NCBI GenBank assembly: GCA_014382365.1
Contig: JACNJW010000053.1
Location: 124,001 to 188,000, forward strand
DNA: 64,000 nucleotides
Direction: 5' to 3'
Source: SAR324 cluster bacterium
Lineage (GTDB): Bacteria; SAR324; NAC60-12
The position numbers and the translations under genes are program-made. The notes beneath the pieces are model-generated. The model was not told the origin of the DNA. It made no database searches and was given only the letters and a program-made list of their open reading frames with translations. Below are positions 44,697 to 56,950 of the stretch, one piece after another. Positions within the stretch are counted from its first letter, which is position 1. The number at the start of each line of letters is the position of its first letter.

Positions 44697-45116
44697 TTGT
44701 CATCACTTACTTGATCCGGGATCCTGTTTTGTTTGATGTTGAAGATAAGAATTGGAATGGTTCCCCTGGATTCCCGCTTTCGCGGGAATGACAACTTTTT
44801 AACATGTCTGGAAAAACCCACTCCTGGATTCCCGCGTTCGCGGGAATGACAAAACTCTTAAACAAATTATTTGTCATCTCGAACGAAGAGAGAGATCTTA
44901 ATAATATCAGTGCTTAAAAAAATAGATTTATCGCTTCACTCGAAATGACAAGAATTTAACTTGTCTGATTGAACACACTCCTTGTTACAGCTACCTTCTC
45001 GTTACGAGGCTCTGCCTCGTAACGTTGCCTGTGAAGTTCTACCTCAATAATGCTTTACTGATTGTGCAAGGCGAGCAATGCTGACTTCATTCCGCGGCAG
45101 AGCCACGGAATGAGTT
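44697..45116. repeat. Long direct repeat, copy B (right of FN3 lipoprotein gene)
   Basis: About 420 bases matching copy A in the same orientation, with the 120-base identical core at 44841-44960. It contains inverted repeats at 44769-44792 (CCCGCTTTCGCGGG), 44827-44851 and 45002-45022 (TTACGAGGC.GCCTCGTAA). The two copies are about 2.77 kb apart, measured start to start. Another 150 bases to the next gene hold a degenerate palindrome. Confidence 0.85.
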
Positions 45117-53770: not shown

Positions 53771-54409
53771 TTAAGTTCGTTTTTTGCTTTTTCTGTAAGG
53801 ATTCTCTTTAACTGCTGCTACTATTTCTGCAGTTTCTTCTGGTTTTTCTTTTTCCGGCTTTTTTGTTTTTCTGTAGGGATTTTCCTTAACAGGTTTTTCT
53901 GTTTCTACAGTTACTGCTGTATCTTCCTCTTCGGCTATAGCAGAAGTCTTCTCAGGAATTATCTCAACAGCAGGCTCTTCTTTGACTGCAATTGCTTTTG
54001 TTTTTCTCTCTAGAGTGATTTGGTCATAAACTCTTTGCAAAACACTGTTTGTCAGACCATGTGATGTGTCATCTACAAAGTCTTTACAGAGTTCAACTGC
54101 TTCATTAATCACTACACTGTGAGAGAGTTCAGGATAGTGATAAAGTTCAAAAACCGCCAGCCGCAGGATATTACGTACTGTAATTGAAAGACGGCTGAGT
54201 TTCCAGTGTTCAAGGTTTAGGCGCAAATAGCGGTCAAGGTGCTTACGGTGCTGCAGTGTGCCTGCAGTCAGTTCACGTGCAAATGTTTTTATTTCAGGGC
54301 TTGTTTCAAGTTGATCTAGAAAACGATCGACATGTATCATGGCCTTACTTTTCAGCATTTCTGCCTGATATAGTGCCTGCAGTGTGTATGCTCGAGCTTG
54401 GTGGCGCAT
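53771..54409 (-). CDS. nusB: Transcription antitermination factor NusB with C-terminal extension
   Basis: Residues 1-135 form the all-helical NusB domain: RHQARAYTLQALYQAE, ILRLAVFELYHYPELSHSVVINEAVELCKDF and NSVLQRVYDQI. NusB pairs with S10 (NusE) at boxA to support rRNA transcription and antitermination. Residues 138-212 are an additional tail, rich in Glu, Lys and Pro, with a duplicated KENPYRK(T/S)KK motif (about residues 175-184 and 201-210). Typical NusB ends near residue 140-160, so this is an unusual extension. A perfect palindrome lies 40 bases upstream. Confidence 0.88.
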   Translation of the reverse strand: MRHQARAYTLQALYQAEMLKSKAMIHVDRFLDQLETSPEIKTFARELTAGTLQHRKHLDRYLRLNLEHWKLSRLSITVRNILRLAVFELYHYPELSHSVVINEAVELCKDFVDDTSHGLTNSVLQRVYDQITLERKTKAIAVKEEPAVEIIPEKTSAIAEEEDTAVTVETEKPVKENPYRKTKKPEKEKPEETAEIVAAVKENPYRKSKKRT

Positions 54410-54447: not shown

Positions 54448-54473
54448 GTCATTCCCGCTTTCGCGGGAATGAC
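54448..54473. repeat. Perfect 11-bp-arm palindrome between lpxC and nusB
   Basis: GTCATTCCCGC, a four-base loop, and GCGGGAATGAC make a strong hairpin in either strand. It is a member of the dispersed GGATTCCCG family seen around 42-45 kb. It could act as an mRNA processing or attenuation site between the two genes. The 190-base gap holds no gene. Confidence 0.75.
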
Positions 54474-54599: not shown

Positions 54600-55928
54600 T
54601 CAGGTTGTCAGTGCAACATGTAACTTTTGTACCAGTGCCTGATTATAACCGTGAGATGTCATGTTGGCCACAACTCTGCCACGCAGAGGATAACCCAGCA
54701 GAAAGAGATCTCCAATCAGGTCCAGTATTTTGTGGCGCACAAATTCATCCGGATAACGTAAGTCAGTATTGATCACTTTTCCGTCATGCATGATAATATG
54801 TGAATCGAGATAACCACTGCCGACAGTTCCGCTTTTTTGGGCCATGTCAATATTCTCGAAGGTGTTGAAAGATCTTGCCGGCGCAATATCAACATCAAAC
54901 GAGTCTTTTTCTGCATTGAAGGTTAGTTTCTGTTCTCCAATTGGTGCATCATAATCAACCCGCATTTTAACCTCAAAACCGTCAAACGGTTCCACATAAA
55001 GATGTTTTTCATCCAATTTTTTGCGTCCAACCTGAATTGGTTCCAAAACAACAGCATCTTTTGCAGCGACATCCTGATCCAGTATTCCTGCGTCATTAAT
55101 AAGTTTGCTGAAATCATTTGCAGAACCATCTATGTTTGGGATTTCTTCATCGACTTTAGCCAGGACGTTTGTGATGCCGGCCATATGCAGTGAGGCCATC
55201 AAATGCTCAACTGTACGTACCCGCCGACTTTCACGTGCCAACACAGTTGAGTTTGCACTGAATGATTGTTTTGCTACAGATTGTGAAAAATTTTCGATAT
55301 TAGTAATGTGTGCAGGTACTGAGGTATCATCCAAAGTTTGAAAGACGATTCCAGAATTTGCTTCAAGCGGACTTAAAATCACACCTGTATTTCTTCCGGT
55401 CAGCAGGCCTTTGCCGTTCAAAACAACATTACTTTTCAAGGTTCGTTGCGGACGGTTTGAGTCTTCCAATTTTAGTGCACCGGAAGGAATGATGGGATTA
55501 ATAATTTTTGCCACCTCCATCTGTGTATCAGAAGCAAGGTCCTTGATTTTTTCTGGAGGTTTGTTTGAAAGTACAACTGCAATTTTGTCCAGTAAAATTT
55601 CCAGCCGCAGCGGCTTTTCCATAAAGTCAACTGCACCAAGTTTTATTGCATTTACTGCAGCATCAATACCTGCATGTCCGCTCATCATGATTACCGGTAG
55701 TTCCGGATGAGTTTCTCTCAGTTGACTGAGAATCGCCATCCCGTCAGTTCCCGGCAGCCAGATATCCAGCAGTACCAGCGCAGGAATCTGCTGTTCCAGT
55801 TCTGCACAAAATTCTTCAGAATTTTGACAGGAAACCACCGGATATCCTTCATCTCCAAGTACCCTTTCCAGGGTTTCCCGAATTGCCGGTTCATCATCCA
55901 CAACGCAAATAATTTGTGAGTTGGTCAT
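54600..55928 (-). CDS. lpxC: Response-regulator receiver domain fused to LpxC deacetylase
   Basis: A 442-residue fusion. Residues 1-120 are a CheY-like receiver: Asp11-Asp12 acidic pocket, phospho-acceptor Asp55 (LVLLDIWLPG), Ser83 and Lys105, with NtrX-like GHAGIDAAVNAIKLGA. After a 35-residue linker, residues 160-442 are UDP-3-O-acyl-N-acetylglucosamine deacetylase, the committed step of lipid A synthesis. Zinc ligands and catalytic residues are intact: Glu241-His242 (RTVEHLMASL), His399 and Asp403 (FVRHKILDLIGDL), and His426 (TSHGYNQAL). No histidine kinase is adjacent. There is no internal stop or start near the junction, so the fusion is a single ORF. Confidence 0.9.
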   Translation of the reverse strand: MTNSQIICVVDDEPAIRETLERVLGDEGYPVVSCQNSEEFCAELEQQIPALVLLDIWLPGTDGMAILSQLRETHPELPVIMMSGHAGIDAAVNAIKLGAVDFMEKPLRLEILLDKIAVVLSNKPPEKIKDLASDTQMEVAKIINPIIPSGALKLEDSNRPQRTLKSNVVLNGKGLLTGRNTGVILSPLEANSGIVFQTLDDTSVPAHITNIENFSQSVAKQSFSANSTVLARESRRVRTVEHLMASLHMAGITNVLAKVDEEIPNIDGSANDFSKLINDAGILDQDVAAKDAVVLEPIQVGRKKLDEKHLYVEPFDGFEVKMRVDYDAPIGEQKLTFNAEKDSFDVDIAPARSFNTFENIDMAQKSGTVGSGYLDSHIIMHDGKVINTDLRYPDEFVRHKILDLIGDLFLLGYPLRGRVVANMTSHGYNQALVQKLHVALTT

Positions 55929-55967: not shown

Positions 55968-56435
55968 TTAAAATTTATACTTCAAGCGCTGTCCGAGTTG
56001 AAGCTTGAGTTCAGCTGCACGTCCTGCATTTAACTCCAGTACAAAATTTGCCGGCACTGAAGGTTTCAGAATCGGCGGCTTTTCTCCAGGAGCCACAGGT
56101 TGAACGTTTTGGAGAATGTGAATTATTTTGTAATCGTCCAGCCAGATAATGTCCAGTGGAAACTGCATGTCCTTCATCCAAAAACTTTGCAGTTTTTTGT
56201 TCTCAAAAATAAACAACATCCCCCAGCCTTTTTTGAGGCCTTGCCGTTTTCCAAGTCCAAGACTTCGTTTTTCAACTGTGTCAGCAACTTCAACACTAAT
56301 CTCTTTGTCGGCAGCTGTGATGACAACTGCATGTGCATAATTCTCAGTCTCTGCAAATGCAGGGCTGGTGCCCAAGAAAAGAATGCAGCCGAAAATAGTA
56401 AAAATTATGTAACTAAAATGTCTGGGCCAAATCAT
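55968..56435 (-). CDS. DUF192 family secreted protein
   Basis: A 155-residue protein with an N-terminal signal peptide (IIFTIFGCILFLGTSPAFAE). The DUF192 domain has KRSLGLGKRQGLKKGWGMLFIF, SFWMKDMQFPLDIIWLDD and the C-terminal VLELNAGRAAELKLQLGQRL. Function is unknown in the family; members are often exported. It overlaps the def stop by four bases and is co-transcribed with it. Nothing in the sequence suggests an enzyme. Confidence 0.83.
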   Translation of the reverse strand: MIWPRHFSYIIFTIFGCILFLGTSPAFAETENYAHAVVITAADKEISVEVADTVEKRSLGLGKRQGLKKGWGMLFIFENKKLQSFWMKDMQFPLDIIWLDDYKIIHILQNVQPVAPGEKPPILKPSVPANFVLELNAGRAAELKLQLGQRLKYKF

Positions 56436-56950
56436 GCGTCATCATTTGCGAGCTTTTTAAGTCGTTTCTTTACCATTTTTTGCTTTAGCAAAGGTAAACG
56501 GTCTATGAACAGGATACCATTCAAATGATCAATCTCATGCTGCAGACAGATGGACATCATGTCATTTGCTTCAATAGTTTTTGCTGCACCGGAAAGGTCC
56601 TGATATGCAACAGTAATGTATTCGGCACGTTCCACCTCACCTCTAAAATCAACCACACTCAAACAGCCTTCTTCAGAGACGGTTCTTCCGGAACTGCTGA
56701 CAATTTCAGGATTAATGAAGACATGTGGTTCACGCAGGCTCTTGTCTTCCTCTCCGCTTTTCAAATCAACTACAATGATTTGTTTGAGGATGCCTGCTTG
56801 AATTGCTGCCAGACCAATGCCGCTGGAAACGTACATTGTTTCCAGCATGGATTGTGTGGTGTTTTCCAGTTCCTGATCAAAAGTTGTAACGGGTTCTGTC
56901 TTTTGCTGCAAAACTGGTGCAGGAAAAGTAAAAATTTCTAAAAGTGCCAT
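56432..56950 (-). CDS. def: Peptide deformylase
   Basis: Def removes formyl groups from nascent N-termini. The 172 residues contain the three family motifs: GIGLAAIQAG (motif I, about residues 43-52), EEGCLSV (motif II) and CLQHEIDHLNG (motif III, metal-binding His-Glu-x-x-His). The N-terminal segment is standard. No fmt is adjacent. The DUF192 gene overlaps its stop by four bases. The start is the ATG at 56950. Confidence 0.94.
   Translation of the reverse strand: MALLEIFTFPAPVLQQKTEPVTTFDQELENTTQSMLETMYVSSGIGLAAIQAGILKQIIVVDLKSGEEDKSLREPHVFINPEIVSSSGRTVSEEGCLSVVDFRGEVERAEYITVAYQDLSGAAKTIEANDMMSICLQHEIDHLNGILFIDRLPLLKQKMVKKRLKKLANDDA

Follow-up and report, generated by a model that had tools for sequence, protein, structure and literature searches.

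As judged from its sequence, a gene of the SAR324 cluster encodes a response regulator that carries as its output LpxC, which catalyses the committed step of lipid A synthesis. Proteins of this kind are present in many bacteria and constitute the sole LpxC of one SAR324 family. LpxC commits the cell to lipid A, the LPS anchor of the outer membrane; it sets the amount of LPS in the cell and is an antibiotic target. The gene is located in the window, i.e. the whole stretch of 64,000 nucleotides analysed here from contig JACNJW010000053.1. A preliminary description of this DNA had proposed a reading frame joining a complete receiver to LpxC. The frame occupies exactly positions 54600-55928, and both domains are recognized by Pfam, and LpxC also by NCBIfam, above the cut-offs. 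The features of the gene are as follows.

54600..55928, minus strand: receiver-LpxC fusion gene, 442 aa, ATG to TGA; Pfam, NCBIfam and solved-structure matches.
55581..55910, minus strand: receiver domain, residues 7-116; PF00072; D11, D12, D55, S83, F102 and K105, residues kept across the family.
55764..55766, minus strand: codon of the phosphoacceptor Asp55, read from the sequence.
55449..55580, minus strand: linker, residues 117-160; poorly conserved, pLDDT < 50 at residues 122-144.
54621..55448, minus strand: LpxC deacetylase domain, residues 161-436; PF03331, TIGR00325 and Foldseek; E241, H242, H399, K400, D403, H426, L176 and S353.

The Pfam Response_reg model (PF00072) matches residues 7-116 (1.1e-28, 100.1 bits against a cut-off of 30.2) and the LpxC model (PF03331) residues 161-436 (8.3e-72, 242 bits against 27). 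The NCBIfam lpxC equivalog TIGR00325 scores 201.5 bits on the protein, above its cut-off of 187.25. Sequence matches in the PDB are LpxC on residues 160-436 and NtrX/NtrC-type receivers on residues 7-113. The best Foldseek matches of the LpxC domain are LpxC structures (7k99/7cid, TM (target) 0.80-0.84), P. aeruginosa LpxC among them. Both domains are folded in an AlphaFold (AF2) model built from 28 homologues and lacking an inter-domain error map (mean pLDDT 77, pTM 0.66). Linker residues 122-144, with pLDDT below 50, are probably disordered in the protein. No defined packing of the receiver against LpxC is seen in this model, given its pTM and the low linker pLDDT, and the coupling of the two domains is thus a proposal. 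An internal start yielding free LpxC was considered and dropped: M137 is the sole methionine suited to it and is not conserved among homologues.

The closest group to the window receiver is that of the NtrX/NtrC-type sigma-54 response regulators, and relatives of the fusion keep the receiver-AAA+-(HTH) order of these regulators before LpxC. The window protein differs from them in that its output is an enzyme, and the Pfam scan found neither an AAA+ nor a Fis-type HTH domain in it. Since the DNA-binding domain is absent throughout its clade, transcription is not the output, in agreement with the earlier suggestion of a regulation acting without transcription. The LpxC-FabZ fusion (PRK13188) described for Chlorobium tepidum (PMC516016) resembles the window protein in that a second domain is joined to LpxC. 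However, its partner is C-terminal and metabolic (FabZ), whereas that of the window protein is N-terminal and regulatory. A FabZ-type fusion was ruled out: by Pfam bounds the protein ends at the LpxC domain with almost no residues after it, no C-terminal FabZ domain is detected by Pfam or NCBIfam, and the match to PRK13188 (169.7 bits) is far below the cut-off of 465.

The preliminary description had raised the possibility that the receiver is an assembly artefact. An artefact of assembly or of frame fusion is rejected by full-length homologues with 55-90% identity in independently assembled MAGs, a single-cell genome and an isolate. In a scan covering 84,980 species genomes, these homologues were found in SAR324 cluster MAGs, in the single-amplified genome AG-439-L22, in Desulfofustis glycolicus DSM 9705 (a RefSeq isolate) and in Desulfobulbaceae, Nitrospirae and Oligoflexus MAGs. 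All 27 LpxC-bearing genomes of the window's SAR324 family have long LpxC frames (442-512 aa); the receiver was confirmed directly in fetched loci and other members of the family were judged by frame length. LpxC is short (about 290-400 aa) in 10/10 genomes of the sister SAR324 family and in 11/11 of the rest of the class. One genome of the window's family (G027) carries two fused LpxC genes (L055, L056) in similar gene surroundings. The second copy is rich in ambiguous bases, and mixed strains may explain it better than a duplication.

A wider profile search, which answers the call for a domain-architecture search made with the preliminary description, covered 383 genomes, mostly from different bacterial families (about 268). 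Scores of 361-661 bits marked the fused type of LpxC, and ordinary LpxC scored 276 bits or less. Beyond SAR324, fused LpxC turned up in 21 genomes belonging to 16 of the families sampled. The fusion is thus a widespread family and not a local oddity, and some of its members carry AAA+/HTH parts in between. Two small phyla have fused LpxC as a rule. One (that of G059) has receiver-LpxC proteins of about 430-500 aa, and the other (that of G056) mostly has receiver-AAA+-LpxC proteins of 670-800 aa, with or without a Fis-type HTH. Either form, receiver-LpxC or receiver-AAA+(HTH)-LpxC, occurs in additional families, and a whole or partial AAA+/HTH part lies between the domains in relatives L142, L174 and L190. 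L190 (514 aa) consists of receiver, HTH and LpxC without AAA+, and L186 (466 aa) has just a short linker between receiver and LpxC; these architectures indicate that the AAA+/HTH part is undergoing loss within one phylum. Four apparently receiverless members of the two phyla (L146, L152, L195, L197) were set aside, all of them being truncated by contig ends. The AAA+ domain of L142, L173-L201 and L236-L246 is of the sigma-54 type, often without Walker motifs. No GAFTGA motif was seen in the 11 AAA+ forms scanned by motif. The receiver-AAA+-LpxC loci possibly encode an NtrX-like regulator in which the DNA-binding output and LpxC both perhaps still act.

A tree of 113 LpxC domains, 73 of them fused, was constructed. 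All 73 fused domains form a single group (SH-aLRT 99), which splits into clade I (the SAR324 family, Desulfobulbales/Nitrospirae and Oligoflexus; SH-aLRT 100) and all others (89). In the receiver tree, which has few columns and hence moderate weight, the fused receivers again come together (91), as do those of the window's clade I (97). The window receiver is 38-62% identical to other fused receivers and about 35% or less to other receivers of its own genome, those encoded near HisKA kinases. The AAA+/HTH-bearing forms point to descent from an NtrC/NtrX-type regulator, and the whole pattern fits one ancient fusion of such a regulator followed by domain loss and transfer. Within clade I of the LpxC tree, SAR324, Desulfobulbales and Nitrospirae sequences are interleaved, which fits horizontal transfer. 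Moreover, the ordinary LpxC of other SAR324 families is placed elsewhere in the tree, and the window's family therefore probably acquired the fusion and lost the LpxC it had before. Together with five genomes that have both kinds of LpxC, the ordinary LpxC of other SAR324 families suggests horizontal transfer with replacement.

The fusion resembles ordinary LpxC (PF03331, TIGR00325) over the whole catalytic domain. In the window protein the zinc ligands are H242, H399 and D403, the general base is E241, H426 is the equivalent of His265 and K400 that of Lys239. By E. coli numbering, the positions equivalent to Glu78, His79, His238, Lys239, Asp242 and His265 do not vary in any row aligned there. 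Every residue named in the preliminary description (D55, K105, E241, H242, H399, D403, H426) was correctly placed on alignment. Its wording "catalytically intact" is accurate for the general base, the zinc ligands and the His265 equivalent, but not for two further positions, His19 being replaced by Leu176 and Thr191 by Ser353. Apart from these replacements, the fusion differs from ordinary LpxC by its added N-terminal receiver and by its place in a separate group with other receiver-fused LpxC. The His19 position is Leu, Met or Ile in 62/62 clade I rows (Leu in 60) and His in 115/117 rows outside the clade; the Thr191 position is Ser in 60 of the 62 and Thr in all 117 others, row counts here including duplicates because the same gene was fetched by two routes. 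Both residues are widely conserved, yet they were not taken as a criterion of LpxC membership. The leaky envA1 allele of E. coli is a His19 change. Since both residues are replaced, clade I enzymes may work more slowly or be tuned differently. In the receiver-LpxC proteins L233 and L234, from two closely related single-contig genomes (G402, G266), the His19 position holds Gln (GLQSG), apparently another independent loss of His19.

The same two substitutions, nearly fixed in the clade and absent from nearly all other rows, could mark the window's clade as a paralogue acting on another substrate, and not as the LpxC of lipid A. The occurrence of an ordinary LpxC alongside the fusion in 5/12 other genomes (D. 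glycolicus, one Nitrospirae, one Desulfobulbaceae and two Oligoflexus-type) would agree with this, and outside SAR324 the fused form may for that reason be accessory. However, the fusion gene is the only PF03331 match in the window's genome, where LpxA (288 bits), LpxD (282) and LpxB (287) all score above the NCBI equivalog cut-offs. Nor was any LpxC but the fused form found elsewhere in the family, 25/29 genomes of which have LpxB, and the invariant zinc ligands and Glu78 and His265 equivalents further argue against a change of substrate. We regard a paralogue as quite unlikely. With a single LpxC beside LpxA, LpxD and LpxB, the window's genome very probably relies on the fusion, a predicted deacetylase, as its lipid A pathway enzyme. 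Phosphorylation, if it has an effect, would thus hit the committed step, as the preliminary description had supposed. The Pfam model of the LpxD N-terminal domain (PF04613) has no match over its cut-off in any of the 29 family genomes, whereas the equivalog finds LpxD in the one tested (L292, G000:C18). A first reading that the family has no LpxD was dropped, since in the window's genome TIGR01853 detects LpxD at full length; the two results suggest that the LpxD of this family has a divergent N-terminal domain.

The receiver of the window protein has the acidic pair D11 and D12, the phosphoacceptor D55, S83 and K105. Across the fused receivers, position 55 is Asp in 135/135 rows (duplicates again included), the second acidic residue, D12, is likewise invariant, D11 is nearly so, position 83 holds Ser or Thr without exception and position 105 is Lys in 134/135. 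Among sequences from the window's genus, dN/dS comes to about 0.064 (receiver), 0.082 (linker) and 0.033 (LpxC), rough values given that synonymous sites are near saturation. By this rough measure (median about 0.06) the receiver appears to be under purifying selection, and its rate of evolution is about double that of LpxC. These data bear on the idea that the receiver is left over from an NtrX-type regulator, a passive relic attached to a constitutive LpxC. The graded loss of AAA+/HTH parts in related forms is what domain erosion would look like, and no kinase gene is adjacent. However, a relic would have lost its phospho-site somewhere; instead, across several phyla and with small genomes included, every row keeps the phosphoacceptor Asp and the second acidic residue, and all rows but one keep the switch Lys. 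The low receiver dN/dS points the same way. A relic is therefore very improbable.

We favour, as somewhat probable, a response regulator with an LpxC output in which phosphorylation of Asp55 by a sensor kinase changes deacetylase activity post-translationally. A kinase reading envelope or LPS status would phosphorylate Asp55. The resulting change in the receiver, by dimerisation or through an interaction with LpxC across the linker, would raise or lower deacetylase activity, and lipid A flux would be set after translation. Alternatively, the receiver might govern the amount or the place of LpxC and not its rate, through recognition by a protease or adaptor or through membrane recruitment, in the manner of RssB- or CpdR-type receivers. 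The flexible-looking linker and the absence of predicted packing would suit such a docking module, and proteolysis is the rule for the LpxC level in E. coli (PMC12444477). An E. coli-type C-terminal degron is unlikely because the fusion has almost no tail past the LpxC domain, so that another handle for proteolysis would be needed, as this alternative supposes. However, no protease or adaptor partner was found: the matches checked in a PF18073 (LapB) search of the window's genome were RadA-like, the search being confounded by RadA zinc ribbons. We consider control of amount or place possible but doubtful.

For the favoured phospho-switch on activity, a kinase was sought. No kinase gene lies consistently beside the fusion across the lineages compared. 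The window's genome has 14 HisKA matches. One belongs to a 760-aa HAMP-PAS-HisKA-HATPase kinase (L354:3339-5618, G000:C35) without an adjacent receiver gene; several further kinases of this genome likewise lack one. The H-box of the 760-aa kinase, REVARRIAHEIKNPLTPIQLSAERIQRKY, is presumably of the NtrY type, and no NCBIfam model above cut-off names the protein. Its gene lies in the order ccmC-ccmE-[kinase]-UPF0047-pyrG-lptC/lptA-like-FKBP, which two further genomes from its genus (L362, L363) share. Because its neighbours are LPS-export genes, we would guess from context that this kinase is the best candidate partner of the fusion.

The preliminary description stated that LpxC is normally controlled by proteolysis. 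This holds for E. coli and its relatives; in Rhodobacter, Caulobacter and Desulfovibrio, two-component systems are known to control lpxC transcription. Loss of NtrYX in Rhodobacter sphaeroides raises lpxC mRNA 8.8-fold and LPS about twofold, indirectly (PMC7240162). The single target of the Desulfovibrio vulgaris response regulator DVU2934 is lpxC, and the lpxC gene of Syntrophobacter fumaroxidans immediately precedes an operon orthologous to that of DVU2934 (PMC3333781). NtrYX (Rhodobacter, Caulobacter) and DVU2934 thus bear on the same committed step as the fusion, but they act via transcription, whereas the window receiver is part of the enzyme. The modes of control given in recent reviews are LapB/FtsH/YejM, Lon and Ght, and transcriptional NtrYX and ChvGI; no receiver-LpxC fusion came up when their text was searched by term (PMC12444477, PMC13333357). 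No report of the fusion was found in the full-text literature searched, largely non-subscription papers, and the architecture may be present, uncommented, in sequence databases. Nor did we find a paper listing LpxC as a response-regulator output domain.

Response regulators with enzyme outputs include CheB methylesterase and the GGDEF, EAL and HD-GYP proteins. The fusion is like them in having receiver and enzyme in one chain, but its output is a house-keeping biosynthetic enzyme. Cells with the fusion probably use a phosphate switch to control outer-membrane synthesis directly. If so, a built-in receiver would add to proteolysis (E. coli) and transcription a third mode of control, one both direct and fast. 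The series receiver-AAA+-HTH-LpxC, receiver-HTH-LpxC and receiver-LpxC provides an unusually clear record of the passage from a transcription factor to an enzyme regulator. Moreover, phosphorylation control of LpxC can here be reduced to a question about one purified protein.

Finally, the surroundings of the gene were described. The neighbouring genes are listed below.

55968..56435, minus strand: DUF192 gene, immediately upstream (Pfam); same strand, possible operon.
56432..56950, minus strand: peptide deformylase gene (Pfam, NCBIfam); 4 bp overlap with the DUF192 gene, possible operon.
53771..54409, minus strand: nusB gene, downstream (Pfam, NCBIfam).

In several other genera of the family, a gene from the nusB cluster also comes after lpxC. 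Between lpxC and nusB, at 54449-54472, lies a perfect or near-perfect palindrome, TCATTCCCGCTTTCGCGGGAATGA. Two further copies are present in the window, at 44768-44791 and 44826-44849, where none would be expected by chance. The palindrome looks like a dispersed intergenic hairpin repeat, and the copy at 54449-54472 may end transcription downstream of lpxC.
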